A stretch of 21,672 nt of DNA from a virus: IMG/VR virus record IMGVR_UViG_3300000117_000322, positions 1 to 21,672 of that record; one strand, 5' to 3'. Positions 1 to 13,570 of this stretch are shown piece after piece. How positions within the stretch are numbered: the stretch's first letter is position 1; each line of letters opens with the position of its first letter. The translations under genes and the position numbers were made by a program. The notes beneath the pieces are model-generated. The model worked only from the letters and a program-made list of their open reading frames with translations, was not told the DNA's origin and did not search any database.

Positions 1-1257
1 GGTCAGTTAATAGTTACTCACAGTGGCGAATTAAATTTACAACAACAAGCAACTTCTTTAACACTACCAGATAACGAAGCAGCAGCTTTAGATATAAATG
101 AAGGCGGAACTTCATATCTTAAGTTTATAACTACGAATGGCAGTGAAGAAGTTGAGATTGGACAAAATGTCGACTTAAATGGAGACATAGATGTTTCAGG
201 GGCAGCAACTTTAGGTTCAGCTGCAGTAACTGGCAACTTAACAATTAACACAGACAAATTCACAGTTACAAGTGGAGAAGGTAATACAAGTATAGCAGGT
301 ACATTAGGAGTAACTAATGCCGCAACCTTCTCAGATAGTTTAACAGTAACAGGAGCAACAACTTTAAATGGTAATGTTACTTTAGGTGATGCATCAGGAG
401 ATGTTATTACAGTAACAGGTACAGCAACATTCTCACAATCAGCAGACTTTGATGGTGGATTAACCGTTGCTGGCTCACAAACTGTTGATATGGGTGGAAA
501 CAGAGTTACCAATATTGGTACTCCATCACAGTCAACAGACGCAGTAACAAAAGCATATGTTGATAGTGTAAAACAAGCACTAGATGTAAAAGATTCAGTA
601 AGAGTTGCTTCAGAATCAAACTTATCAACAACTTATAACAACGGAACTGGTGGCGTAGGTGCAACACTTACAGCAGACTCAAATGGAGCAATATCAGTTG
701 ATAGTGTTTCATTAACATCAGGAGATAGAGTACTTGTAAAAGCACAAACAGATACAAGTGAAAACGGTATCTACTCTGTAACAACAGTTGGTGATGTTTC
801 AAATCCATTCGTTCTTACAAGAACAACAGACGCAGATAGCTCAGCAGAAGTTACTGGCGGTCTGTTTACATTTGTTGAAGAAGGAACAAATGCAGATGCA
901 GGTTTCGTACTTTCAAATATAACTGGTTCAGCAACAATCGGTACTGATAACTTAACATTCACACAGTTCTCAGGAGCTGGTAGTGTTACTGCAGGAGCAG
1001 GTCTTGCTAAATCAGGAAACACACTTTCAGTTAATGTAGATGATACTACAATAGAAATTAATTCAGATACATTAAGATTAAAAGGAGTAAGTTCATTACC
1101 AGAAGGCACAATACTATATGGTGCTAATGGTGGTAATTCTTTTGCTTCTTTATCAATCGGAACATACGATTCAACCAACTCAGTAGGACAAGTACTACAA
1201 GTTGGTGCGAACGGAACAATAACATGGACAAATACATTAGACGGAGGAACGTTCTAA
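1..1257 (+). CDS. Modular tail-fibre/adhesin protein, 5'-truncated by the window edge
   Basis: The frame is open from base 1 to the TAA at 1255-1257 (418 residues), with no start in view, so this is the C-terminal part of a larger protein. The first ~160 residues are Gly/Thr/Val-rich beta-repeats (TGNLTI, GTLGVTNAATF, GATTLNGNVTL), typical of trimeric phage fibre shafts. Near residue 163 is a GGNRVTNIG...TDAVTKAYVD segment, a common phage fibre linker. It is followed by an LDVKDSVRVAS module containing SGDRVLVKAQT, ENGIYSV and DADSSAEVTGG (residues ~178-310), which recurs in many phage tail fibres. The C-terminus (GVSSLPEGTILYGANGG ... ITWTNTLDGGTF) looks like a tip domain. The ATG at 490 lies inside this frame and is not a credible start. 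The role is probably structural, in host recognition. The family assignment rests on remembered motifs. Confidence 0.85.
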   Translation, partial: GQLIVTHSGELNLQQQATSLTLPDNEAAALDINEGGTSYLKFITTNGSEEVEIGQNVDLNGDIDVSGAATLGSAAVTGNLTINTDKFTVTSGEGNTSIAGTLGVTNAATFSDSLTVTGATTLNGNVTLGDASGDVITVTGTATFSQSADFDGGLTVAGSQTVDMGGNRVTNIGTPSQSTDAVTKAYVDSVKQALDVKDSVRVASESNLSTTYNNGTGGVGATLTADSNGAISVDSVSLTSGDRVLVKAQTDTSENGIYSVTTVGDVSNPFVLTRTTDADSSAEVTGGLFTFVEEGTNADAGFVLSNITGSATIGTDNLTFTQFSGAGSVTAGAGLAKSGNTLSVNVDDTTIEINSDTLRLKGVSSLPEGTILYGANGGNSFASLSIGTYDSTNSVGQVLQVGANGTITWTNTLDGGTF

Positions 1258-1258
1258 T

Positions 1259-1462
1259 ATGGCTCATGTGATTAAACCAAAAAGGTCAGAAACGGCCTCG
1301 TCTGTACCAGATGCAAACGATCTAGAAGTACATGAAATTGCAATGAATGTTTCAGACGGTAAAATTTACACAAAAGCGGCTAACGGTTCAATAGTAACAG
1401 TAGGTTCGGCAGGAGGCCAAACCGAAGACGATGTACTAGCGTTAGCCATAGCACTAGGATAA
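1259..1462 (+). CDS. Small phage structural protein, tropism-determinant N-terminal-like (67 aa)
   Basis: This short protein begins MAHVIKPKRSETASSVPD and continues with DLEVHEIAMNVSDGKIYTKAANGSIVTV. The pattern (K-R-S near the start, P, 'L-E-V-x-E-I-A-x-N', then 'D-G-K-I-Y-T-K') matches the small fold at the N-terminus of many phage receptor-binding and hyaluronidase-type fibre proteins, where it usually attaches a fibre to the virion. Here it stands alone, with a short GGQTEDDVLALAIALG tail. It starts one base after the preceding stop, with GGAGG 11 bases upstream. It probably works with the neighbouring fibres. The exact role is inference. Confidence 0.75.
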   Translation: MAHVIKPKRSETASSVPDANDLEVHEIAMNVSDGKIYTKAANGSIVTVGSAGGQTEDDVLALAIALG

Positions 1463-1466
1463 GATT

Positions 1467-1799
1467 ATGGCATCAGCATTTAAAACAGCAACGCAAGCAA
1501 ATGTAGGAACTTCTTTAACAACTGTATTTACTTCACCTGTTGGTTCTACTTGTACAATCATAGGATTGTATTTATGTAATCAGAGTGGAGGAAGCATAGA
1601 AGCTAATACTGTTTTTTATGATGCAAGTTCAACAACATTAGTTAATATTACTCATAACACACCTATTCCAAGCGGAACATCTATAGCCGTAATCGGCGGA
1701 GATGCAAAGGTAGTGTTAGAGGCAGGGGACAGTATAAGAATACAAAGCAATGTAGCTAGTAGTATCGATGTAGTCCTATCATATTTGGAGCAAATATAA
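1467..1799 (+). CDS. Small beta-rich virion protein (110 aa)
   Basis: The protein has no signal peptide or membrane segment. It looks like a single beta-sandwich domain: an N-terminal strand region (GTSLTTVFTSPVGSTCTIIG), a central LYLCNQSGGSIEANTVFYD, then PIPSGTSIAVIGG, KVVLEAGDSIRIQSN and a final VVLSYLEQI. Proteins of this length and pattern (IPAGSS...KIVLEAGD...S.VLE) are familiar to me as small structural proteins in marine T4-like phages, but I cannot name a specific function. It lies four bases after the 67-residue gene and one base before the large repeat fibre, so it is co-transcribed with the fibre cassette. Confidence 0.7.
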   Translation: MASAFKTATQANVGTSLTTVFTSPVGSTCTIIGLYLCNQSGGSIEANTVFYDASSTTLVNITHNTPIPSGTSIAVIGGDAKVVLEAGDSIRIQSNVASSIDVVLSYLEQI

Positions 1800-1800
1800 C

Positions 1801-4800
1801 ATGGCATTAATAGGTAAGGAAAACCATCTAGTCTCCGTATTGGAGGCAAATGCAGTCGGGACTACTGAATTAGTAAGTAACTCTGTTACTGCAAGTGAGA
1901 TAGCAGCAAATGCTGTTGGAAGTAATGAAATTGCTGCAAATGCTGTCGGAACATCAGAATTAGCAACCAACTCCGTTGGGACAGCACAATTACAAGCTAC
2001 AGCTATTATAAGCGTAAGCGACAACGCAATAGATTCAGCAGCTATAGCTGCAAACTCAGTAGATTCTAGCGAATTGGTAAGTGGGTCTATTGATTCAATA
2101 CATTTATCAACTGGAGCAGTTACAACAGCGAAGATAGCAGCAAACGCAGTCACTTCAGCTGAAATAGCTTCTAACTCAATCGGTAGTACAGAAATAGCAG
2201 CAAATGCAGTAGGCAGTTCAGAATTAGCACAAAATTCAGTCACAGCTACACAAATTCCGAGTGGAACAATAACAGCAGACTTATTAGCATCAAACTCAGT
2301 AGATTCAGCAGAACTTGTGAGTGGTAGTATAGATACTATACACTTAGGAAATCTACAAGTTACAACAGGTAAATTAGCTGCAGATGCAGTAACAGGTGCT
2401 AAAATTGCAGATGACTCTATAGATTCAGAACATATAGCGGCAGGAGCAATTGATACAGAACATTTAGGAGCTGCCCAAGTAACAGGCGCTAAAATAGCTG
2501 CGAATACTATCGCAACAGGAAATGTAGCAGATAATGCAATAGACGGAACAAAAATAGCTACAGATAGTATAGTTGCAAGACATATAGCAACAGCTGCAGT
2601 AGGTGCAGATGAACTTGCAGCAAACTCAGTAGATTCAGCAGAATTAGTAAGTGGCTCAATAGACACAATACATTTAGCAGACGATTCAGTAACAGCAGGT
2701 AAAATAGCATCAAACTCAGTAGATTCTGCAGAACTTGTTAGTGGCAGTATCGATACAATACATATAGGTACAGCACAAGTTACAACAGCAAAACTAGCTG
2801 ATAATGCTATTATAGCAAGTAAACTTACTTCTGGAATAATATCTTCAGAGCATATTGTAGATGGTACTATTGTTTCAGGAGACATAGCAGCAAATACTAT
2901 TGCTACAGGAAACATAGCAGACAATGCTGTAGATGGTACAAAAATAGCTACAGACAGTGTAGTTGCAAGACATATAGCATCAAACTCAGTAGATTCTGCA
3001 GAACTTGTTAGTGGCAGTATCGATACAATACATATAGGTGCGGCACAAGTTACAACAGCTAAAATAGCAGATAATGCTATTACAGCAAGTAAACTTACTT
3101 CTGCAATAGTATCTTCAGAACATATTGTAGACGGTACTATAGTATCGGCAGATATAGCAGCCAATACTATTGCTACAGGAAACATAGCAGACAACGCTAT
3201 CGATGGCACTAAAATCGCTAGTAACTCTGTAGTATCAAGACATATAGCAGAAAACACAATTACATCTTCAGAAATAGCAACTGGTGCAGTAGGTGCATTA
3301 CAAATAGCTGCAAACTCTGTAGATAGTTCAGAATTAGTAAGTGGTAGTATAGATACTATACATATTGGAACTTCTCAAGTAACAACAGCAAAAATAGCAG
3401 CAAATAATATTACTTCTGCAAAAATTGCTACAGACCAAGTTTTAGCCAGACACATAGCTGCAGGAGCAGTAGATTCTAGTGAATTAGCTGCCAACTCTGT
3501 TGGGGTAAGTGAACTAGCAAGTAGTGCACTTGGTGGACAAACTTTTACAGGAAATGTTACTCTTTCTGGTAACTTAACTGTAAATGGAACAACTACAACA
3601 GTTAATTCAACAACAACAACCATTGCCGACCCATTAATGGAACTTGGTACAGGAACAACAGGAACTCCATCAAATGACGCAGGTATCGTCATAGAAAGAG
3701 GCGACCAAAATAATGCATTTATTGGATTTGATGAAAGTGAAAACAAATTTAAAGTAGGTACTGGTACATTTACTGGTGCTTCCACAGGCGACCTAACAAT
3801 TACAACAGGAACAATAATAGCTAATGTAGAAGGAAATGTTACTGGTAATTTAACAGGTAATGCTGATACAGCAACAACTTTAGCAACAAATAGAGCTTTC
3901 TCTTTAACAGGAGATGTAACTGCTTCAGCTGTAAACTTTAACGGATCAAGTGCAGTTGCTTTAACAACAACATTAGCCGCAAATACAGTAGATAGTGCAG
4001 AATTAGTAAGTGGTAGCATAGATGCAATTCACTTAGCTTCTGACTCTGTAACAAGTGCTAAAATAGCAGATAACGCTATTAATAGTGTAGCATTTATATC
4101 AAGCGGTCTAATTACGTCAGACTTGATAGCAGATGGAACTATTACAGCAGGTGACTTAGCAGCTAACTCAGTAGATTCAGCAGAATTAGTTAGTGGTAGT
4201 ATAGACACTATACATATAGCAGACAATGCAGTTACAGCAAATAAAATAGCAACAGACTCTGTAGGAAGCGATCAAATAGCTGATAGTAGCATAGATGCAA
4301 ATCACTTAGCTTCTGACTCTGTAACAAGTGCTAAAATAGCAGACAATGCTATTAATAGTGTAAACTTTATTTCAAGCGGTTTAATTACATCAGACTTGAT
4401 AGCAGATGGAACTATTGCAGCAGGTGATTTAGCAGCAAACTCAGTCGACTCCAGTGAAATAGTAAGTGGGTCTATTGACGCAATTCATATAGCAAACAAT
4501 GCAGTAATAGGAAGTAAAATAGCAGCGAACTCAATAGATTCAAGCGAACTTGTTACTGGTAGTATAGATACTATACATATTGCAGATAATGCAGTTACAG
4601 CAAATAAAATAGCAATAGACTCTGTAGGAAGCGATCAAATTGCGGCAAACGCAGTCACAGCTTCTGAACTAGCAGGAAACTCTGTAACAGCAACACAAAT
4701 AGCAATAGGAGCAGTTGGTTCATCAGAACTTGCAGCTAATTCGGTAGATTCTAGTGAATTAGTAAGCGGTAGTATAGATTCTATACATATTGCAAATAAT

Positions 4801-5634
4801 GCTGTTACTGGAGCAAAAATTGCTCTTAACACTATTACAGCAAGTGAACTTGCAACAGATGCAGTTACTTCTGTACATATTGCAGATAACGCTATTAATA
4901 GTGTAAACTTTATTACTAGCGGATTAATCACAGCGGACTTATTAGCATCAAACTCTGTAGACTCAGCAGAATTAGTAAGTGGCAGTATAGATACTATACA
5001 TATTGGAGCTTCACAGGTTACAACAGCTAAAATAGCTGATCTTAATGTAACAAATGCAAAACTAGGAGCTAACTCTGTAACAGCAGCTAAAATAGCAGCA
5101 AACGCTGTTGGATCAAGTGAGATTGCAAATAATTCTGTAACATCTACACAATTATCAAGTGCAGCATTATCTGGTAAAAGCATGTCAGGGAATATCGGGT
5201 TCGCTGGAGCTAATGTCAATATGGGTATTAACACTACTTCTATACTTGAGCTAAAAGGTAAGTTAGGTATTCAAGATGCAAACCCAGTTCAAAAACTTCA
5301 TATAGACGAAGTTGCTGGTATGGATGTAGGTTCAGGAACTTCATCAGCAACTACACAATTTACACTAGATAGTTTTGCAGCAGCAACATTTAGAACTGCT
5401 AAATACTTAGTACAGGTAACGAATACAACAGATTCAGACTATCAATCCATAGAGATAGTACTATTCCATGATGGAACAACAGTTTATCTAACACAGTACG
5501 CTTCTATATTTGACAATGGTGCTCAAGCAACATTCGATGCAGATATAAGTGCTGGTAATGTAAGATTAAGGGTAACTCCTGCTTCAACAGACAGCATGGC
5601 TTACAAGTTTATTAGAACAACAATAGAGGTATAA
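1801..5634 (+). CDS. Giant decapeptide-repeat tail fibre (1277 aa)
   Basis: Residues ~15-580 and ~726-1124 are tandem ten-residue units of the form x-[SA]-[VI]-[DT]-x-x-x-[IL]-[AV]-x (for example NSVDSAELVS, GSIDTIHIAD, NAVTANKIAT), the kind of array that forms a trimeric beta-helical fibre shaft. Between the arrays, residues ~580-725 carry a fibre module seen widely in T4-like marine phages: GNLTVNGTTTTVNSTTTTIAD, NDAGIVIERGDQNNAFIGF, then TGNLTGNADTATTLAT. The last ~120 residues form a distinct C-terminal domain (FRTAKYLVQVTNTTDSDYQ, IEIVLFHDGTTVYLTQY, NVRLRVTPAS), probably the tip or a trimerisation domain. TTGGAG precedes the ATG, which lies one base after the upstream stop. A host-recognition or long-tail-fibre role is likely. 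The attachment point on the virion is unknown. Confidence 0.85.
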   Translation: MALIGKENHLVSVLEANAVGTTELVSNSVTASEIAANAVGSNEIAANAVGTSELATNSVGTAQLQATAIISVSDNAIDSAAIAANSVDSSELVSGSIDSIHLSTGAVTTAKIAANAVTSAEIASNSIGSTEIAANAVGSSELAQNSVTATQIPSGTITADLLASNSVDSAELVSGSIDTIHLGNLQVTTGKLAADAVTGAKIADDSIDSEHIAAGAIDTEHLGAAQVTGAKIAANTIATGNVADNAIDGTKIATDSIVARHIATAAVGADELAANSVDSAELVSGSIDTIHLADDSVTAGKIASNSVDSAELVSGSIDTIHIGTAQVTTAKLADNAIIASKLTSGIISSEHIVDGTIVSGDIAANTIATGNIADNAVDGTKIATDSVVARHIASNSVDSAELVSGSIDTIHIGAAQVTTAKIADNAITASKLTSAIVSSEHIVDGTIVSADIAANTIATGNIADNAIDGTKIASNSVVSRHIAENTITSSEIATGAVGALQIAANSVDSSELVSGSIDTIHIGTSQVTTAKIAANNITSAKIATDQVLARHIAAGAVDSSELAANSVGVSELASSALGGQTFTGNVTLSGNLTVNGTTTTVNSTTTTIADPLMELGTGTTGTPSNDAGIVIERGDQNNAFIGFDESENKFKVGTGTFTGASTGDLTITTGTIIANVEGNVTGNLTGNADTATTLATNRAFSLTGDVTASAVNFNGSSAVALTTTLAANTVDSAELVSGSIDAIHLASDSVTSAKIADNAINSVAFISSGLITSDLIADGTITAGDLAANSVDSAELVSGSIDTIHIADNAVTANKIATDSVGSDQIADSSIDANHLASDSVTSAKIADNAINSVNFISSGLITSDLIADGTIAAGDLAANSVDSSEIVSGSIDAIHIANNAVIGSKIAANSIDSSELVTGSIDTIHIADNAVTANKIAIDSVGSDQIAANAVTASELAGNSVTATQIAIGAVGSSELAANSVDSSELVSGSIDSIHIANNAVTGAKIALNTITASELATDAVTSVHIADNAINSVNFITSGLITADLLASNSVDSAELVSGSIDTIHIGASQVTTAKIADLNVTNAKLGANSVTAAKIAANAVGSSEIANNSVTSTQLSSAALSGKSMSGNIGFAGANVNMGINTTSILELKGKLGIQDANPVQKLHIDEVAGMDVGSGTSSATTQFTLDSFAAATFRTAKYLVQVTNTTDSDYQSIEIVLFHDGTTVYLTQYASIFDNGAQATFDADISAGNVRLRVTPASTDSMAYKFIRTTIEV
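1843..3535 (+). repeat. First decapeptide (30-bp) repeat array of the fibre
   Basis: This is a degenerate 30-bp coding repeat. Each unit has V or I at position 3 and I or L at position 8, with D/S/T/A/N around them. The phase is kept almost without gaps, and synonymous codons differ between units (for example gtagattcagca versus gtagattctagc). Several units (NSVDSAELVS followed by GSIDTIHI) recur as a fixed pair every few decads, giving a higher-order structure. Confidence 0.85.
2711..3250 (+). repeat. Tandem 270-bp duplication within the decapeptide array
   Basis: The blocks 2711-2980 and 2981-3250 are near copies. Both begin caaactcagtagattctgca and encode nine decads in the same order (NSVDSAELVS, GSIDTIHIG., .AQVTTAK.A, DNAI.ASKLT, S.I.SSEHIV, DGTIVS.DIA, ANTIATGNIA, DNA.DGTKIA, ..SVV.RHIA). 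The length is exactly nine units, so the frame and fibre register are preserved. This looks like a recent recombination duplication. Confidence 0.85.
3978..5172 (+). repeat. Second decapeptide (30-bp) repeat array of the fibre
   Basis: This is the same ten-residue motif as in the first array, resumed after the globular module at ~3540-3977. It contains an odd 11-residue step, NAINSVAFIS/NAINSVNFI followed by SGLIT, seen three times (about 4075, 4348 and 4890), which shifts the phase by one residue each time. Confidence 0.8.
4021..4566 (+). repeat. Tandem ~273-bp duplication containing the 11-residue step
   Basis: The segment from 4021 (gatgcaattcacttagcttc) is repeated from 4294 (gatgcaaatcacttagcttc). 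Both copies carry SDSVTSAKIADNAINSV, then SGLITSDLIADGTI. The spacing is 273 bp (91 residues), i.e. eight decads plus one 11-residue unit. The copies differ mainly at third codon positions. Confidence 0.75.
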
Positions 5635-5635
5635 A

Positions 5636-5857
5636 ATGGGACAAAAATTAGATTTTAATATTGAAGACGCAGGATTGAAAATTGATGGAACAGCTGCAAT
5701 TGCTTCAGACGCAACTTATTCAGGAACTTTAGATTCCGATAAAATTACTGGAGGTACTATTAGTGCCGACAGACTTCCTTACACAATAACACAGACTGCT
5801 CCTTCTAATGTAGGAAGTACAAGTAGTGGTCATATATGGTTTGTATATTCGAGTTAA
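5636..5857 (+). CDS. Small fibre-associated protein (73 aa)
   Basis: The protein starts MGQKLDFNIEDAGLKIDG and contains SGTLDSDKITGGTISADRLP, a fragment that echoes the decapeptide motif of the preceding fibre. It ends APSNVGSTSSGHIWFVYSS; the 'P-S-N-x-G...G-x-I-W-F-V-Y' ending is common at the C-termini of small phage tail proteins. It starts one base after the fibre stop, with GAGG 7-10 bases upstream. It is probably a small virion or fibre-assembly protein. I do not recognise a specific function. Confidence 0.65.
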   Translation: MGQKLDFNIEDAGLKIDGTAAIASDATYSGTLDSDKITGGTISADRLPYTITQTAPSNVGSTSSGHIWFVYSS

Positions 5858-5860
5858 GAA

Positions 5861-8800
5861 ATGGCACTGTATATCAATGACAATGGAACACTTCGTACTA
5901 TCTCCTTTCTGGCGTTAAACGATAGTGGTACGCTTCGCAGAATCAATGAGGTATATGTAAATGATAACGGCACACTAGCTGGGCCGTTTACCATTACACA
6001 TCAAACTTCTAGGAATACTGCAACAAGTACTTCTACAATCAGTGGTGTACAAGAAACTTCTTACGCAACTACAACAATATTTAATACTACTCAAGATACT
6101 ATAACTGCTTTCGATACAAGTAGAACAACTATATTTAATACAACTCAAGCAACTGAAACAAGTAGAACAACTGCATTTAATACAACAACTGCTTTTACTA
6201 CTACAACAGCGTTTACTACAACAACAACCTTTAATACGACACAAGCTACAACAACTGCTTTTACTACTACAACAGCGTTTAGTACTACAACTACATTCAA
6301 TACGTCTCAGTCTACTACAACTGCGTTTAATACAACAACAGCTTTCACGACTACTACAACATTTAACACAACACAGTCCACAACAACTGCGTTTAATACC
6401 ACCACAGCATTTAGTACTACAACAGTATTTAATACTACACAAGGCACAACAACGGCCTTTAATACAACAACAGCGTTTACAACAACAACAACGTTTAATA
6501 CTACTCAAAGTACTACAACTGCGTTTAATACTACAACTGCGTTTACAACAACTACAACCTTTAATACTTCGCAGAGTACAACAACAGCGTTTACTACTAC
6601 AACAGCATTTAGTACTACAACTACATTTAATACTTCACAAGGTACAACAACAGCGTTTACTACTACAACAGCATTTAGTACTACGACTGTTTTTAATACA
6701 ACACAAAGTACAACAACAGCATTTACAACTACAACAGCATTTAATACAACAACAACATTTAATACTACTCAAAGTACCACAACAGCATTTACAACTACGA
6801 CTGCTTTTAATACTACGACTGTTTTTAATACAACACAAAGTACTACAACAGCATTTACAACTACGACTGCCTTTAATACTACGACTGTTTTTAATACAAC
6901 ACAAAGTACTACAACAGCGTTTACTACAACAACAGCGTTTAATACTACAACTACATTCAATACGTCTCAGTCTACTACAACAGCATTTACAACAGTAACA
7001 GCATTTAATACTACGACTGTTTTTAATACAACACAAAGTACTACAACAGCATTTACAACTACAACTACATTTACTACTACTACAACATTTAATACTGCAC
7101 GAAGCACTACAACAGCTTATAATACTACAACGACTTACACTACTTCATATGACACAGTGATAAGTACCAGTAGGAATACTTCGTTTGCAACAAATACAGC
7201 AAGAACAACTAATACTTCACAGTCGACTTCATATACAACAACATTTACAACTACGACTGCATTTAATACAACTACAACCTTTACAACTACAACAGCGTAT
7301 ACTGATAATACAAGTTTTGGTACTAGTAGAATTACAACTTTTACAACTACAACTGCGTTTAATACAACAACAACATTTACAACAACAACAGCTTATCAAG
7401 ATAATACATCTTTTGCTACTACTAGAACTACAACATTTGCAACAACAACAGCTTATGAAGATAATACATCTTTTGCTACTACTAGAACAACAACATTTAC
7501 AACAACAACAGCTTATCAAGATAATACATCTTTTGCTACTACTAGAACTACAACATTTGCAACAACAACTGCATATATAGATAATACTTCGTTTGGTACT
7601 ACTAGAACTACAACATTTATAACTACAACAGCATATATAGATAATACTTCTCAAAGTACTACAAGAAATACAAACACATCAAGAATTACAGCCTATATAG
7701 ATAATACAACTTTTGCTACATCAACAGCATATACTACAACACAGGCTACAAATACAAGTAGAAGTACTTCATTTACAAACTCTACAGCATACAATACAAC
7801 ACAGGCTACAAATACAAGTAGAAGTACAGGATTTACAAATTCTACAGGATATAATACATCACAAGCAACAAATACTTCTAGAAATACATCATTTGCAACA
7901 AATACTTCTAGAAATACAAATACTTCTAGAAATACAACAAGAGCAACTAATACTGCGGCGTTTTTGGGAACTTTTAGAACTACTTCATTTATAACAATTT
8001 TTGAGACTTCTTATGGTAATCGGGAATATGACAACACCACTAGAATTACATCAAGAACAACGGGGATTATTACATCCTTTACAAATAATACATCATTTAC
8101 AACAGGATTTACTAATGCTACTGGATTTACAAATGATACTACTAGAGCAACAGGATTTACAAACAATACATCATTTGGTACAGCTAGAAACACTAACACA
8201 AGCAGAATTACAGCATACATAGATAATACATCTTTTGGTACAAGTAGAAATACAAACACATCAAGAATTACGGCATACATAGATAATACCGCTTTTGGTA
8301 CAAGTAGAAATACAAATACTTCTCAGGCTACAAATACAAGTAGAAGTACAGGATTTACAAACTCTACAACATATAATACATCATTTGCTACAAATACAGC
8401 AAGAGGAACAAATACCGCACAATCAACAGCATATACTACAACACAAGCAACAAATACCTCAAGAAGTACTAATACAGCACAGTCAACAACCTATAATACA
8501 GTAAGATTATCAAATACTGCAAGAAGTACTAATACTGCACAGTCAACAAGTTATAATACAGTAAGATTGTCAAATACTGCAAGAAGTACTAATACAGCAC
8601 AGTCAACAAGTTATAATACAGTAAGATTATCAAATACCGCAAGAAGTACTAATACTGCACAAGCTACAGGAACATCACAATCTACAAATACTTCACAATC
8701 AACAAGTTACAATACTGTAAGATTGTCAAACACTGCAAGAAGCACAAATACAGCACAAGCAACAGGTACTTCACAGTCTACAAATACTTCCCAGGCTACT

Positions 8801-10138
8801 AGTAGAATTACAACATTTGGAACAACAACTGCATATGTTGATAACACATCACAGTCAACAAGTTATGAGACAGCTTATATTACAAGTAGAATAAGTAGTA
8901 GGGCAACAGGTACAAGTAGAAGTACAACTACAACATTTAATACTTCACAAGGAACGCTAACAAGCAGAAGTACAGCATCAAGTAGAAGTACAGTATCAAC
9001 ATTTGCAACATCACAATCTACTGCGTCAAGTAGAAGTACAGCATCAAGTAGAAGTACAACTACAGTATTTGCTACTTCACAAGGAACAATTACAAGTAGA
9101 AGTACTGCTTCAAGTAGAAGTACAGTATCAACATTTGCAACATCACAATCTACAGCATCAAGCAGAAGTACTGCTTCAAGTAGGAGTACAACAACTGTAT
9201 TTGCTACTTCACAAGGAACAATTACAAGTAGAAGTACAGCATCAAGCAGAGATACTACTACAACATTTAACACAACACAGTCTACTGCATCAAGCAGAAG
9301 TACTGCATCAAGCAGAAGTACAACAACTGTATTTGCTACTTCACAAGGAACAATTACAAGTAGAAGTACTGCTTCAAGCAGAGATACTTCTACTGTATTT
9401 AATACAGCTCAATCTACTGCATCAAGCAGAAGTACAGCTTCAAGTAGAGATACTTCTACTATATTTGCAACATCACAAGGAACAATTACAAGCAGAAATA
9501 CTGCTTCAAGTAGAGATACTACAACAACATTTAATACAGCTAGAGGTACTGCATCAAGCAGAAGTACTGCTTCAAGTAGGAGTACAACTACAGTATTTAA
9601 TACTTCACAAAGTACAGTAACAAGTAGAAGTACTGCTTCAAGTAGAAGTACAACTACAATATTTGCAACTTCACAAGGAACAATTACAAGTAAGTCAACT
9701 GGTACAAGTAAATCTACAAGTACAGTATTTAATACAACACAAGCAACAATTACAAGTAGAAGTACAGCATCAAGCAGAAATACTACTACAACATTTAACA
9801 CAACACAGTCTACTGCGTCAAGTAGAAGTACAGCATCTTCTAGAACTACAGAAACTTCTAGAACAACAGCGTTTACTACAACTACAACATTTAATACAAG
9901 TAGAACAACAACATTCGGTACAGATAGAACTACAACTACGACCTTCAATACAACAAGGTCTACAGATACAACGATTACTACTGACCACTTAACCACAACG
10001 ATATTTAATACATCTACCGTTGTATATGAAAGAACAACAGCCTCTCAGGCAGGAACTCTATTTGACACAGAAGTTTCTAGCTTAGATGACTACGGATTCT
10101 CCTTCTGGGATGGCTCAAAATGGAGTGAGAGCAATTAA
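5861..10138 (+). CDS. Giant Thr/Ser-rich low-complexity fibre protein (1425 aa)
   Basis: The N-terminus holds three copies of a 14-residue motif (NDNGTLRTI, NDSGTLRRI, NDNGTLAGP, at residues 6, 20 and 34), seen in phage fibre N-termini and probably the virion-attachment part. Residues ~47-1370 are low complexity, mostly Thr, Ser, Asn and Ala, with F/Y/Q/R at regular spacing. Units are 22 residues (FNTTQSTTTAFNTTTAFTTT type) at ~124-430, 20 residues in the middle and 22 residues (FATSQGTITSRSTASSRSTT type) at ~1026-1333. Bulky residues keep one parity (every second residue) almost throughout, as expected for an extended beta structure with one face bulky. The C-terminal ~50 residues (YERTTASQAGTLFDTEV...FSFWDGSKW) return to normal composition. 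There is no Cys or signal peptide. The frame is unbroken over 4.3 kb with synonymous codon variation, so it is a real gene. It is probably a tail fibre or decoration fibre; the Ser/Thr content makes O-glycosylation possible but unproven. Confidence 0.85.
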   Translation: MALYINDNGTLRTISFLALNDSGTLRRINEVYVNDNGTLAGPFTITHQTSRNTATSTSTISGVQETSYATTTIFNTTQDTITAFDTSRTTIFNTTQATETSRTTAFNTTTAFTTTTAFTTTTTFNTTQATTTAFTTTTAFSTTTTFNTSQSTTTAFNTTTAFTTTTTFNTTQSTTTAFNTTTAFSTTTVFNTTQGTTTAFNTTTAFTTTTTFNTTQSTTTAFNTTTAFTTTTTFNTSQSTTTAFTTTTAFSTTTTFNTSQGTTTAFTTTTAFSTTTVFNTTQSTTTAFTTTTAFNTTTTFNTTQSTTTAFTTTTAFNTTTVFNTTQSTTTAFTTTTAFNTTTVFNTTQSTTTAFTTTTAFNTTTTFNTSQSTTTAFTTVTAFNTTTVFNTTQSTTTAFTTTTTFTTTTTFNTARSTTTAYNTTTTYTTSYDTVISTSRNTSFATNTARTTNTSQSTSYTTTFTTTTAFNTTTTFTTTTAYTDNTSFGTSRITTFTTTTAFNTTTTFTTTTAYQDNTSFATTRTTTFATTTAYEDNTSFATTRTTTFTTTTAYQDNTSFATTRTTTFATTTAYIDNTSFGTTRTTTFITTTAYIDNTSQSTTRNTNTSRITAYIDNTTFATSTAYTTTQATNTSRSTSFTNSTAYNTTQATNTSRSTGFTNSTGYNTSQATNTSRNTSFATNTSRNTNTSRNTTRATNTAAFLGTFRTTSFITIFETSYGNREYDNTTRITSRTTGIITSFTNNTSFTTGFTNATGFTNDTTRATGFTNNTSFGTARNTNTSRITAYIDNTSFGTSRNTNTSRITAYIDNTAFGTSRNTNTSQATNTSRSTGFTNSTTYNTSFATNTARGTNTAQSTAYTTTQATNTSRSTNTAQSTTYNTVRLSNTARSTNTAQSTSYNTVRLSNTARSTNTAQSTSYNTVRLSNTARSTNTAQATGTSQSTNTSQSTSYNTVRLSNTARSTNTAQATGTSQSTNTSQATSRITTFGTTTAYVDNTSQSTSYETAYITSRISSRATGTSRSTTTTFNTSQGTLTSRSTASSRSTVSTFATSQSTASSRSTASSRSTTTVFATSQGTITSRSTASSRSTVSTFATSQSTASSRSTASSRSTTTVFATSQGTITSRSTASSRDTTTTFNTTQSTASSRSTASSRSTTTVFATSQGTITSRSTASSRDTSTVFNTAQSTASSRSTASSRDTSTIFATSQGTITSRNTASSRDTTTTFNTARGTASSRSTASSRSTTTVFNTSQSTVTSRSTASSRSTTTIFATSQGTITSKSTGTSKSTSTVFNTTQATITSRSTASSRNTTTTFNTTQSTASSRSTASSRTTETSRTTAFTTTTTFNTSRTTTFGTDRTTTTTFNTTRSTDTTITTDHLTTTIFNTSTVVYERTTASQAGTLFDTEVSSLDDYGFSFWDGSKWSESN
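6230..7153 (+). repeat. 66-bp tandem array, N-terminal arm (14 units)
   Basis: FNTTQ/FNTSQ anchors (the last degraded to FNTAR) occur 14 times between 6230 and 7088, at an exact 66-bp period (858 = 13 x 66). The unit pattern is F-N-T-x-Q-x-T-T-T-A-F-x-T-T-T-A-F-x-T-T-T-x. Most units differ at third positions. The units around 6780-6910 are nearly identical at DNA level and look recent. Confidence 0.9.
7381..8660 (+). repeat. 60-bp repeat families in the middle of the Thr/Ser-rich fibre
   Basis: Successive sub-arrays share a 60-bp (20-residue) period with different sequences: TTTAYQDNTSFATTRTTTFA-type at 7381-7620, ATNTSRSTSFTNSTAYNTTQ-type at 7741-7900, TSFGTSRNTNTSRITAYIDN-type around 8170-8330, and NTARSTNTAQSTSYNTVRLS-type at 8461-8640. 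A less regular stretch at ~7950-8100 (AAFLGTF, GNREYDN) separates them. Confidence 0.85.
8936..9859 (+). repeat. 66-bp tandem array, C-terminal arm (14 units)
   Basis: FATSQ/FNTSQ/FNTTQ anchors (with FNTAQ and FNTAR variants) occur 14 times from 8936 to 9794, again spanning exactly 13 x 66 bp. The unit pattern is F-x-T-x-Q-x-T-x-[ST]-S-R-S-T-A-S-S-R-x-T-x-T-x. QGTITSR and QSTASSR variants alternate over the first eight units, giving a 132-bp super-period. Confidence 0.9.
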
Positions 10139-10140
10139 AA

Positions 10141-10317
10141 ATGAGTGAGCCCGGAGGCGGATTTAAAAAAGAAACAAATTTAACACCAGAATACTTAAAT
10201 GGAAAAATGGAAAGTATGATGGCGGCACTATATGATTCAATAGAAGAATCAGAAAAAAGAATGAGAATAATGGAACGAGAAATATTTGAGTTGAAGCGTG
10301 GTAAAACCAAAAAGTAA
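10141..10317 (+). CDS. Small helical, probably coiled-coil protein (58 aa)
   Basis: This is a short gene beginning MSEPGGGFKKETNLTPEYL two bases after the fibre stop and ending GKTKK at a TAA. Residues ~16-54 are strongly helical and charged (KMESMMAALYDSIEESEKR, then MRIMEREIFELKRG), with spacing of M/I/L suited to a coiled coil. The poly-Gly N-terminus is followed by a polar linker. The continuous charge-patterned frame, the tight junction and its 20-base overlap with the next gene support it as real. It could be a fibre chaperone or a small virion protein. I do not recognise a family. Confidence 0.7.
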   Translation: MSEPGGGFKKETNLTPEYLNGKMESMMAALYDSIEESEKRMRIMEREIFELKRGKTKK

Positions 10318-11188
10318 ATTACAAGCATTAACTATAAATGAATCATTGGGAGATATACCCACTCATTTTATGAAGTCAGGTTCTGCATATAGACCCATTT
10401 CAGATTTAAATGGATTAGCAGAGTTTAGAAAAAGAATAATACCTGAAAAGTATAGAGGTAGTCCTTTTGAGTATGATATTTGGTTTAATACTAACGAACT
10501 TCATACTATTAGAAAATGGCTTTATACAGATTTTCTTGGTAATGGTATATACATAAGAGTACCAAGTATAAAAATTAATGATAAATTGTTTAAAAGCATT
10601 GTTAATTCAGACATAAAGATAGACGAAGAACGATGTGAAAAAATAGTAAATAATTTTCATAATAAGTATACCCTAGGAACTAACTTAGAGTACCATGACA
10701 AAGTAGTGTTCTTGCCAGGAACTAATATAATTGCAAAAGGTAAAACAGTACATTGGGCAAGAGTGAGACAATGTGTAGAGGAAGGATTTGTAATCAAACC
10801 TCACCCAATCACTCAAAAGATATGGATAGCAAAACTTAAAAAAGATTACGGAGAAAATACTGTACTCGATAAAAAAGTTGGAGGTTTTGAACTTCTAGCA
10901 AATTGTAAGTCAGTTGCTACTATGCAAAATAGTGAAATGGGACTCATGGCACTTATGTTAGATAAACAATTAAGATTAGTTTCTCATGCAAGAGAAGATA
11001 GAGAAAAAAATCTTTGGACATATGAAAGTTTTTATGGTACAATCGCAAATACAAATGCAAAAAAATCGCTGATGAAAATATTTTCAGCAAAGAACTCAGG
11101 AATAATCTTCAGTTTTGATGAAGATGCGGAGGACAGGTTAATAAACTATCTCAATAATTTTTGGGAGTATAAGGTAATAGACGGATGA
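10298..11188 (+). CDS. Putative GT-B / capsule-polysaccharide-transferase-like protein (296 aa)
   Basis: The start is GTG at 10298: an in-frame TGA at 10292-10294 excludes an upstream start, and the next Met is 24 residues in. The N-terminal half (IIPEKYRGSPFEYDIWFNT, LYTDFLGNGIYIRVPSIKIN) is unfamiliar. The C-terminal half looks like a GT-B donor-binding domain: VVFLPGTN (residues 137-143), FVIKPHP (164-170), FELLANCKSVATMQNSEMGLMALMLDK (197-223). K-P-H-P followed by a 'nS-x-x-G-x-x-A-L-x-L-x-K' loop is typical of capsule synthesis, CDP-glycerol and KDO-type transferases. There is no membrane segment. It overlaps the 58-residue gene by 20 bases and the next gene by ATGA. It might add a sugar or glycerol-phosphate group to a fibre or cell-surface glycan. 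The family assignment is tentative. Confidence 0.6.
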   Translation: MVKPKSKLQALTINESLGDIPTHFMKSGSAYRPISDLNGLAEFRKRIIPEKYRGSPFEYDIWFNTNELHTIRKWLYTDFLGNGIYIRVPSIKINDKLFKSIVNSDIKIDEERCEKIVNNFHNKYTLGTNLEYHDKVVFLPGTNIIAKGKTVHWARVRQCVEEGFVIKPHPITQKIWIAKLKKDYGENTVLDKKVGGFELLANCKSVATMQNSEMGLMALMLDKQLRLVSHAREDREKNLWTYESFYGTIANTNAKKSLMKIFSAKNSGIIFSFDEDAEDRLINYLNNFWEYKVIDG

Positions 11189-12132
11189 TAGAATTAGTAA
11201 CAAAATACAAAAAAGACTGGAGTATGTTTACTCTTGCTTCTTTATTAGATAAAGACGGATTCCGTCTGCATCTATTCATCCATAAAAATGACTGGGATGA
11301 TAGAGAAGTAAATTGGGTAATAAATAATTTTCAAAATGTAAAAGTTTACGAAGCATGGTGGAACGAAGACGATATATCTAGAATGACATTCTTCCTAAAG
11401 GAATACTGGAAAGATAAGGGTGGTCTTGCCAAAAGAATGATAGTATGGGATGGAAATAGAATTTTTAATCAAGCAATTGATAGTGGTAATCTACCACCTG
11501 CAGAATTTTTCAAAGCATCAATTTCATTCTTAAGTAGAGATTTAGTTTTTGATAAACATCCTAATATAGGTCATTACTACGATATACTTAGAATACCAAG
11601 AAAGACTCATCAAGGTATACCTTATATTGACAAGAATTTGGTAATATTAAATTATGATAGATTATCAGAATTTAAGAATAGAGACTTATTCTTTACTAGA
11701 CAAATCGATCCACCAAATCAAGGCAAGAGGCCTTATATAGATACACAACTTATAGCATGTAATGATAACGCTTTCTTTGAAGCATTAAGTTTTTACAAGC
11801 ACTCTTGGTCACCTATTTATGTAAATGGTAAAGTAGACCAGCTCGTTGAAAGAGACGCGATTGGGGCAAAAGAATTATTAGACTATAATGTTATGTTACG
11901 AAAATCTTGGAGTATAGATATAGAACATAGGTATCTTGCGAGAGATTATTTAGATTTAAGTACAGGAGTTCAGTTAGCAGTTCCATGGGATTGTTATACA
12001 GGTCTAATAGATAAAATACCATTAAACTTCAGAAATGCAAGAGTTAATGAAATACTACTACAAAAAGCAGAAAAACAAAAAGCAATCGCAGGAAAACTTA
12101 TTGAAAGAGGATTTATACTAGGAAAGGTCTAG
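11185..12132 (+). CDS. Uncharacterised protein (315 aa), companion of the GT-B-like gene
   Basis: I do not recognise this family. The protein is soluble, aromatic- and charge-rich, with no signal peptide or membrane segment. It opens MIELVTKYKKDWSMFTLASLL and GFRLHLFIHKNDW, reminiscent of the first beta-alpha units of a Rossmann-like or glycosyltransferase fold. Notable patches are LAKRMIVWDGNRIFNQAIDSG, DKHPNIGHYYDILRIPR and a C-terminal ARDYLDLSTGV...CYTGLIDKIPLNF. The start overlaps the preceding stop as ATGA, so the two are translationally coupled and probably function together. A surface-sugar or fibre-modification role is inferred from context only. Its 3' end overlaps the oppositely oriented gene by 15 bases. 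Confidence 0.65.
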   Translation: MIELVTKYKKDWSMFTLASLLDKDGFRLHLFIHKNDWDDREVNWVINNFQNVKVYEAWWNEDDISRMTFFLKEYWKDKGGLAKRMIVWDGNRIFNQAIDSGNLPPAEFFKASISFLSRDLVFDKHPNIGHYYDILRIPRKTHQGIPYIDKNLVILNYDRLSEFKNRDLFFTRQIDPPNQGKRPYIDTQLIACNDNAFFEALSFYKHSWSPIYVNGKVDQLVERDAIGAKELLDYNVMLRKSWSIDIEHRYLARDYLDLSTGVQLAVPWDCYTGLIDKIPLNFRNARVNEILLQKAEKQKAIAGKLIERGFILGKV

Positions 12133-12771
12133 GTTGCCCTGGTTTAAGTCTGATAATATTTTCCAATCAATTACACCTCTATCAAATAAATCAAGTACAA
12201 TCTCCTTCTCTTTCTGAGAATGGGGATTGTATGTCTGTGAGTTCACTGGAATATGCCAACTTGTAGGGTTCGCAAATCCAGCAGTAATTGAAAGAGCTTT
12301 CGAAAAGAAATCAAATCCTACCAATGTAAGAGTGGAAAATTCTATCTTCTGCAAAAAGTATTGAATTGTAATAAAACCTGCACTTGGACGTTGTCCATTA
12401 GTTTCATTGTTTTTAGCTCCCACTAAATCGAATATATTTAACATCTCTTTATCCGAAAACATTTCAATAACCTCGAAGTCAGGATAGTGGTCAGGAATTT
12501 TATTGAGGTGTATACGAGAACGATTAAATAGAACAGGAATGTTCTTAGGAAAGAATTTTCTCTTTTTGTATCTTAGAAATCCAGTTACCCAAATATCCGT
12601 ACGCTTACCAATACTATCCCAATTTTCATCAGTTGGAATACCATTTCCAAATCGTACTACTGTATCAAAACTTTCAATATAATCAGCAAGGTCATGTTGT
12701 AATATTTCAACAGAGTTGCCAACAAGTATTATTCGTTTTCCTTTAGTAATTTTGTGTAAAGTTTCTTCCAT
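12118..12771 (-). CDS. GT29 (sialyltransferase)-like glycosyltransferase (217 aa)
   Basis: The N-terminal motif KRIILVGNSVEIL (residues 12-24) followed by IESFDTVVRFGNG (32-44) matches the sialylmotif-L pattern of GT29 enzymes ('V-G-N-S ... D-x-V-x-R-x-N'). RPSAGFITIQYFL (128-140) with TLTLVGFDFF (147-156) resembles motif S and its following strand. NPHSQKEKEIV (182-192) could be the late His/Glu motif. Bacterial and phage proteins of this class transfer sialic acid-like or other sugars from CMP donors; the substrate here is unknown. There is no membrane anchor, unlike eukaryotic GT29. It overlaps the upstream GT8-like gene by 43 bases, and no later start would retain the VGNS motif, so the ATG at 12771 is secure although its ribosome site is weak. 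Confidence 0.7.
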   Translation of the reverse strand: MEETLHKITKGKRIILVGNSVEILQHDLADYIESFDTVVRFGNGIPTDENWDSIGKRTDIWVTGFLRYKKRKFFPKNIPVLFNRSRIHLNKIPDHYPDFEVIEMFSDKEMLNIFDLVGAKNNETNGQRPSAGFITIQYFLQKIEFSTLTLVGFDFFSKALSITAGFANPTSWHIPVNSQTYNPHSQKEKEIVLDLFDRGVIDWKILSDLNQGNLDLS

Positions 12772-13385
12772 TCGTTTGAGTATAAGAGGTTATCGTGTAT
12801 ATCGTGCCACGGTCCGCCATCAGTAAAGTGAACTGCTTTTGGATTGCGGAAATCATAATAATTTATCATGGCGTTAAATTCTGCAGGAATATCTCCTACA
12901 CTTGTTGCCCAGTCAAATTCATGCAAAGCACCCGCTGGGGCGTGGTTTACATATTCTAAAGTAAGTTTTTTACAGTCAATATTATTAAACCACATTAAAG
13001 ATGACCAATATTTTTTTGGGTAAGCCATATTTATTTTAACATTCATTTTTGTACTAGGTACTAAGAAAGGGGGATGTTTAACACAATAGACAGGATGGTC
13101 AGTTCCTACATAATCTATTAATTCTTGTGGGTCACATCTCCACATAAAGTCACTATCACAAAATAAAGCACAGCCTTGATACATACTAAGATAAGGAACA
13201 AGAAACCGTGTAAAAGCAAACTCAGTGCTTTCATTTTGAAACGGTCTCCTGTATATTCCTTCTCTTTTTAACTCTGACTGTACTAAAGGAATGATAGTAT
13301 GACGCTTAGTATATCTTTCTATTGATGCTTTACATACTTCAAAAGCGTCATGTTGTTCGGAATCATATCCTATATAAATTATCAT
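12729..13385 (-). CDS. GT8-like (GT-A, DxD) glycosyltransferase (218 aa)
   Basis: The start MIIYIGYDSEQHDAFEVCKASI is the first beta-alpha unit of a GT-A fold. STEFAFTRFLVPYL (residues 53-66) and LFCDSDFMWRCDP (74-86) supply the donor-site region with D77-x-D79 as probable metal ligand. HFTDGGPWHD (186-195) matches the C-terminal 'H-F-T-x-G-x-P-W' motif of GT8-type and related enzymes, which supplies the third metal ligand (H186). It is shorter than typical bacterial GT8 (~300 residues) but has the expected core. Donor and acceptor cannot be read from the sequence. It is coupled by ATGA overlap to the DUF6447-like gene upstream and overlaps the GT29-like gene downstream by 43 bases. Confidence 0.75.
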   Translation of the reverse strand: MIIYIGYDSEQHDAFEVCKASIERYTKRHTIIPLVQSELKREGIYRRPFQNESTEFAFTRFLVPYLSMYQGCALFCDSDFMWRCDPQELIDYVGTDHPVYCVKHPPFLVPSTKMNVKINMAYPKKYWSSLMWFNNIDCKKLTLEYVNHAPAGALHEFDWATSVGDIPAEFNAMINYYDFRNPKAVHFTDGGPWHDIHDNLLYSNEWKKLYTKLLKENE

Positions 13386-13570
13386 TCGTCTTTTAGACTT
13401 TGCCCTAAATCATTTACATATGCTTGTCTTGCTGTGCTAAGAGCCGCTCTTTCGTGGTCGAGGTCAGCTAATTTAGCATCACAGTAATTTATAGCATTAT
13501 GTAAAGCTTTTTGGTCTTTGTCAAAGCTATCGGAATCATGTTCGATTCCATCTATTGTAATTGTACTCAT
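13382..13570 (-). CDS. DUF6447-like small protein (62 aa)
   Basis: The protein is a short beta hairpin (MSTITIDGIEHDSDSF) followed by a long amphipathic helix (LHNAINYCDAKLADLDHERAALSTARQAY). This matches the layout I remember for DUF6447, a small phage family of unknown function ('ITIDGxEYD... A..L...D.ELARL....A.LQTAR..Y'). ATGA overlaps link it to nrdB upstream and the GT8-like gene downstream. AGGA sits 9 bases before the start. The family name is from memory and moderately certain. Confidence 0.7.
   Translation of the reverse strand: MSTITIDGIEHDSDSFDKDQKALHNAINYCDAKLADLDHERAALSTARQAYVNDLGQSLKDE

Follow-up and report, generated by a model that had tools for sequence, protein, structure and literature searches.

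The window analysed here, a 21.7-kb virus record of 21,672 nt (IMG/VR IMGVR_UViG_3300000117_000322), carries four glycosyltransferase-like genes beside a gene for a Thr/Ser-rich fibre-like protein. One of the four belongs to a family named here after its KPHP motif. The block is best explained as a phage-encoded virion O-glycosylation system, by which the phage would glycosylate its own Thr/Ser-rich virion protein (probability about 0.7). Decoration of the phage's own fibre had been offered in a preliminary description of the sequence. It gains support from co-occurrence of enzymes and repeats within and beyond the marine T4-like clade, and from fusion of the repeats to a baseplate protein in Stenotrophomonas phage DLP6; glycosylation itself is what we infer from these.

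Glycosyltransferase block and Thr/Ser-rich protein

Tail-fibre genes occupy 1-10138 on the plus strand. The minus strand carries nrdA and nrdB, with genes that read from their sequence as gp46/47-like and single-stranded DNA-binding-like. Between the tail-fibre run (+) and the nrdBA side (-) lie the four enzyme genes, in two convergent pairs whose last codons overlap at 12118-12132. The KPHP-family gene (10298-11188, GTG start, 296 aa) and the gene for a GT-A-fold protein (11185-12132, 315 aa, 4-nt ATGA overlap with the KPHP gene) continue the fibre operon on the plus strand. The GT8-like gene (12729-13385, 218 aa) and the GT29-like, sialyltransferase-like gene (12118-12771, 217 aa, 43-nt overlap with the GT8-like gene) run with nrdBA on the minus strand. 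By motifs and models, all four are glycosyltransferase-like. No match of the window to phages by megablast.

The preliminary description had placed glycosyltransferase-like genes next to a mostly Thr/Ser protein; all open reading frames (ORFs) were found where it had put them, and the block is kept in about 70 contigs. Its three glycosyltransferases (GT-B/KPHP-type, GT29-like and GT8-like with DxD) stand. The fourth gene, listed there as an unrecognised partner, is itself predicted to be of GT-A fold, so that the count becomes four.

The Thr/Ser-rich protein, the proposed acceptor, is encoded by a single ORF (5861-10138, +, 1,425 aa) within the run of tail-fibre genes, its stop 159 nt before the start of the KPHP gene. 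Thr and Ser account for 757 residues (53%; 38.7% Thr, 14.4% Ser). An N-terminal domain of about 45 aa (MALYINDNGTLR...) is followed by repeats and a C-terminal FDTEVSSL..FWDGSKW domain. Thirty-six complete relatives, 752-1,621 aa long, keep the terminal domains and the open frame. Thr periodicity is 4/6/10 residues. The earlier label "mucin-like" fits the Thr/Ser richness, but not the Pro-poor repeats of 4/6-residue period: Pro-Thr-Ser tandem repeats were not found, and Pro is outside the 12 commonest residues. BLAST with proteins of this type as query was unsuccessful, probably owing to low-complexity masking. Thr-codon repeats create many long shadow ORFs, not genes, on both strands at 5975-9996, and a strong GC skew (-0.46 at 6-7 kb).

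Conservation in marine T4-like phages

Each block protein was scanned against 2.9 million viral contigs, and the relatives were reduced to about 70 distinct loci, among which the enzymes diverge to about 40-60% identity. Wherever loci reach far enough, the order is Thr/Ser-rich ORF, KPHP, GT-A, GT29-like, GT8-like, p62, nrdB, nrdA, with the first three reading towards the GT29-like and GT8-like genes and these reading back towards them. Conservation in about 70 distinct contigs excludes a chance arrangement. In the reverse test, from the N-terminal domain of the fibre, KPHP lies 115-185 nt downstream of every Thr/Ser-rich ORF whose contig continues. The pairing is without exception in both directions in this clade. 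Synteny in a single clade is weak evidence, and the search was therefore extended outside it.

The 62-aa conserved small protein p62 (13382-13570, -; weak phrog_21153) stands between the GT8-like gene and nrdB in the window and in those relatives that reach that far.

Pairing in unrelated phages

Homologues of KPHP with 23-40% identity are encoded by KVP40 and further Vibrio phages, by the Caulobacter podoviruses Lullwater and BL198, by Cr30 and DLP6, and on about 20 more contigs. With the marine T4-like phages included, the family comprises 13 clusters below about 42% identity. A Thr/Ser-rich ORF, mostly four-residue-periodic, lies near the KPHP gene on the same strand in 11 of these 13, a count that includes L260, where it overlaps the KPHP gene beyond the overlap limit of the script. 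In Cr30 the version near KPHP is short and weak; DLP6 has none nearby. Co-occurrence across genomes, which the preliminary description had proposed to check, is thus borne out in and outside the marine clade. Stretches of 40 aa with at least 50% Thr+Ser are present in 26 of 136 ORFs among the six nearest, versus 0 of 264 elsewhere in the same loci.

In almost all distant homologues the Thr/Ser-rich protein is encoded one to three genes upstream of KPHP, on the same strand. The Thr/Ser and KPHP proteins are KVP40.0254 and KVP40.0256 in KVP40, and gp41 and gp42 in Lullwater. Repeats resemble TTSWTTSYTTT or STSRSTTRSTAY, and a Thr period of four is found in most (z about 5-8). The N-termini differ, so the repeats would be attached to different anchors. 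Among 84,980 cellular genomes, a pattern scan found one KPHP relative, located after a cut Thr/Ser-rich ORF on a contig of a Bacteroidetes metagenome-assembled genome (DNHN01000173.1). This contig is probably phage, and with this single relative the family looks phage-specific. A DNA scan for Thr at every fourth codon caught mainly TPTP-type proteins, with KPHP at none of those loci, an argument that the KPHP enzyme does not simply follow from Thr-richness.

Other genes recur at these loci. A small gene (MLYARIN..EVLEFPI..), weakly like tail-fibre assembly phrog_4912, is often found between the Thr/Ser-rich gene and KPHP (L243, 7507-7998; L245, 7270-7821; and similar loci). In L007 (4533-5165) and KVP40-type relatives, a phrog_30897 gene, possibly another transferase, directly follows KPHP and is itself followed by QueC-like and NAMPT-like genes.

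Baseplate fusion in Stenotrophomonas phage DLP6

Protein AAY80_265 of DLP6 (L305, 5408-9274) has the N-terminus of a baseplate wedge subunit (phrog_17744, E 2e-236) and a C-terminal Thr/Ser extension of about 750 aa. The extension spans residues of about 530-1288 and is interrupted at about 570-710 by a domain whose sequence resembles a carbohydrate-binding jelly roll. It is the only ORF with Thr/Ser tetrads in the DLP6 genome. The KPHP gene is near the neck genes, and an adjacent GT8-like/GT29-like pair is at least 50 kb away. Because they are fused to a baseplate wedge homologue, the repeats of DLP6 are placed, by homology, on the virion. Enzymes and repeats co-occur without being neighbours, and the apparent exception becomes support. 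The complete genome of Mosig EXVC030M, a control, has a GT8-like gene in its nrd region and neither KPHP, a GT29-like gene nor a Thr/Ser repeat ORF.

Properties of the enzymes

The KPHP protein is assigned to phrog_26179 (function unknown), without a Pfam match; a PDB sequence search with the family profile gave nothing even at E 10. Its AlphaFold2 model (predicted local distance difference test, pLDDT, 86) has a GT-B fold. The eight best PDB matches are WbbB (from E 3e-5, for 5fa0, to 8e-4), with KpsC next, at template modelling (TM) scores of only 0.35-0.45. Conserved family motifs are KPHPIT, F[LP]PG[TSH]N and SE. The (K/R)xHP motif for binding of cytidine monophosphate (CMP), common to CMP-sialic-acid and CMP-Kdo (3-deoxy-D-manno-octulosonate) transferases (PMC12887879), is present as K167-P-H169-P170; across 13 distant members its K, H and second P do not vary. 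QxxxD with an Asp nucleophile is the motif of retaining Kdo transferases (PMC10148158); the nucleophile of WbbB is Asp232 (PMC9587256). No conserved Q or D precedes KPHP in the family alignment, and invariant N143 of F[LP]PG[TSH]N stands at about the QxxxD place, in a register set by spacing, not by structure superposition. Because QxxxD is not conserved, the enzyme is not filed in GT99 or GT107. It is probably a new family of CMP-sugar-type GT-B transferase, and it may be inverting.

Gram-negative bacteria generally make CMP-Kdo. Hosts of the named KPHP phages (Vibrio, Caulobacter, Stenotrophomonas) are all Gram-negative. Genes for donor synthesis (PF02348, PF00793, PF03102) were not found in 12 relatives, which are fragments, and the donor is therefore probably host-supplied. 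In cyanophage S-SCSM2R (L005, 3629-9526) a GT8-like gene is clustered with genes for a carbohydrate phosphorylase and for KdsB and KdsA, a CMP-Kdo pathway of the phage's own; its place near KdsB/KdsA is no more than a hint at a Kdo donor.

The GT-A partner is without a Pfam or PHROG family. Its model (pLDDT 91) matches the UGGT catalytic domain, XXYLT1 and glycogenin in the PDB (E 1e-7 to 1e-5); structure comparison, also proposed in the preliminary description, was run on this enzyme and on the KPHP protein. Profile comparison with KVP40.0257 and DLP6 gp3 was not significant. A model match to A0A142EZR9 (250 aa, E 5e-11, TM 0.75 of target) is probably DLP6 gp3, which has the same length and is encoded beside KPHP; it was not counted, the accession not being tied to the record.

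The GT29-like protein of the window scores under the cut-off of PF00777 (E 9e-4; 19.1 bits against 23 bits), which matches 17 of its 19 relatives (best 2.5e-11). Its profile matches ST3Gal1 (E 1.5e-4), with sialylmotifs L and S both aligned, S weakly. An L-like stretch G-N-S...D.V.RFG.G.P...G.RTD and an S-like stretch RPSAG...GFDFF are conserved. H184 and E188 are invariant, in HxxxE spacing (GT29 motif VS: HxxxxE). On the uncultured 484-kb phage LR756508.1 (L505, 14956-19789), four ORFs matching the GT29 profile stand side by side within 5 kb.

The GT8-like protein (phrog_28018) has invariant D77 and D79 (DxD, in FCDSD), H186, T188 and G190-W193 (HFTDGGPW), and so shows the DxD and an HxxGxxKPW-like motif of GT8. 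PF01501 gives no match in the window protein and matches 4 of 19 relatives (best 2.7e-7).

Proposed mechanism and alternative explanations

The KPHP enzyme would add a sugar to the Thr/Ser repeats of the long fibre or baseplate-attached protein, or to the first sugar there. Building or capping the glycan would fall to the GT-A, GT8-like and GT29-like enzymes in DLP6 and the marine T4-like phages. The host would probably provide the nucleotide sugars used as donors: for the KPHP and GT29-like enzymes a CMP-sugar, CMP-Kdo for instance, and for the two GT-A enzymes uridine diphosphate sugars. On the tail this would give a stiff and hydrophilic rod, probably acidic, of benefit for shielding, spacing or adhesion.

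Several points weigh against this. The donor of the KPHP enzyme (host CMP-Kdo or similar) is suggested by fold and KxHP motif only, because QxxxD is absent despite CMP-Kdo transferases being nearest in fold. KPHP-only phages of Vibrio and Caulobacter are without the other three enzymes by sequence, in the stretches read. The TP-type catch of the codon scan is no unbiased reverse test for a tetrad-type repeat without enzyme. In L475, a fragment of 26 kb, another baseplate wedge protein (5036-9508, -) carries a very long Thr/Ser extension and no enzymes are present, which neither supports nor refutes the pairing. The GT29-like and GT8-like genes, on the opposite strand with nrdBA, may have earlier expression and another role.

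The last point leads to a split of functions, in which KPHP and its GT-A partner would modify the fibre with sugars, whereas the GT29-like and GT8-like enzymes, from genes transcribed together with nrdBA, would have glycans of the host surface as substrates. The convergent pairs on opposite strands agree with this, as do the Vibrio and Caulobacter phages, where KPHP alone accompanies repeats, and Mosig, which keeps its GT8-like gene without KPHP. It is unlikely, however: in the marine clade the four enzymes have not separated despite deep divergence, and DLP6, with KPHP and repeats, also has its GT8-like and GT29-like genes side by side.

Modification of host lipopolysaccharide (LPS) or capsule during infection, excluding other phages, would make the proximity to fibres a host-recognition island. 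GT8-type genes of pelagimyophages are so read (PMC7029224), and GT8-like and GT29-like relatives are carried by phages without detected KPHP (Mosig, S-SCSM2R, LR756508). The pairing of KPHP with Thr/Ser-repeat proteins in unrelated phages is left unexplained, as is DLP6, with repeats and enzymes far apart yet both present. Mosig has a GT8-like gene but neither KPHP nor repeats. This explanation is quite improbable. Glycosylation of hypermodified phage DNA, a role of some phage glycosyltransferases according to PMC12619734, can hardly apply, and the preliminary description had already slightly disfavoured it: 12 related records (fragments of 39-105 kb) have no match to PF00303 (thymidylate synthase/dCMP hydroxymethylase), the folds are of CMP-sugar type and the genes are linked to fibre genes.

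Virion glycosylation as preferred here could extend to a widespread, undescribed glycoprotein module in phages of Gram-negative bacteria: a Thr/Ser tetrad-repeat rod, free or baseplate-fused, a dedicated new CMP-ulosonate-type GT-B family, and Kdo-like acidic O-glycans on tails from a host LPS precursor. This wider proposal is tentative and somewhat doubtful. Glycosyltransferases are common in marine phages and are usually read as altering the host surface or phage DNA. A fixed partnership of enzyme and Thr/Ser virion protein in unrelated phages, the laboratory phages KVP40 and Lullwater included, would be a third role with a named substrate. If true, it would reveal a new family of glycosyltransferases, possibly with proteins as their targets, and would explain kilobases of Thr-codon repeats in phage genomes.

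Comparison with known systems

Virion glycosylation by phage enzymes is of a known kind. In mycobacteriophages, glycosyltransferases of the phage itself are reported to modify the C-termini of capsid and tail-tube proteins (Freeman et al. 2023, as cited in PMC12619734). Phage enzymes acting on own structural proteins, reported there, are proposed here, the enzyme being linked to a structural protein through the DLP6 baseplate fusion of the acceptor. The present system differs in its dedicated, very long Thr/Ser-repeat fibre or baseplate extension, in another GT-B enzyme and in phages of Gram-negative hosts. The pairing of a KPHP enzyme with a Thr/Ser virion protein was not found described in the open literature searched; substrate class and enzyme family are apparently undescribed.

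The retaining beta-Kdo transferases WbbB (GT99), KpsC (GT107) and KrkA (GT140) share the GT-B fold, by Foldseek, and (K/R)xHP with the KPHP protein, which differs in lacking QxxxD, at 9-16% identity and the low TM scores given above. GT29 sialyltransferases (ST3Gal1, ST6Gal1) share L- and S-like sialylmotifs with the phage GT29-like protein, which is short and has HxxxE instead of HxxxxE; no source of sialic acid was found. GT8/GT24 transferases (WbbM GT8 domain, glycogenin, UGGT) share DxD and C-terminal HF..GGPW, and the GT-A fold of the partner; the likeness is remote. Eukaryotic mucins and Thr/Ser-rich glycoproteins likewise have long Thr/Ser-rich repeats, a likely O-glycan scaffold. The phage repeats differ in being Pro-poor, with bulky residues often 4 or 6 apart, a spacing that suggests extended beta structure and not a random Pro-Thr-Ser chain. 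The host recognition cluster of pelagimyophages, read as LPS-modifying (PMC7029224), also combines tail-fibre genes with many glycosyltransferases, whereas the partner of KPHP here is a virion protein in unrelated phages.

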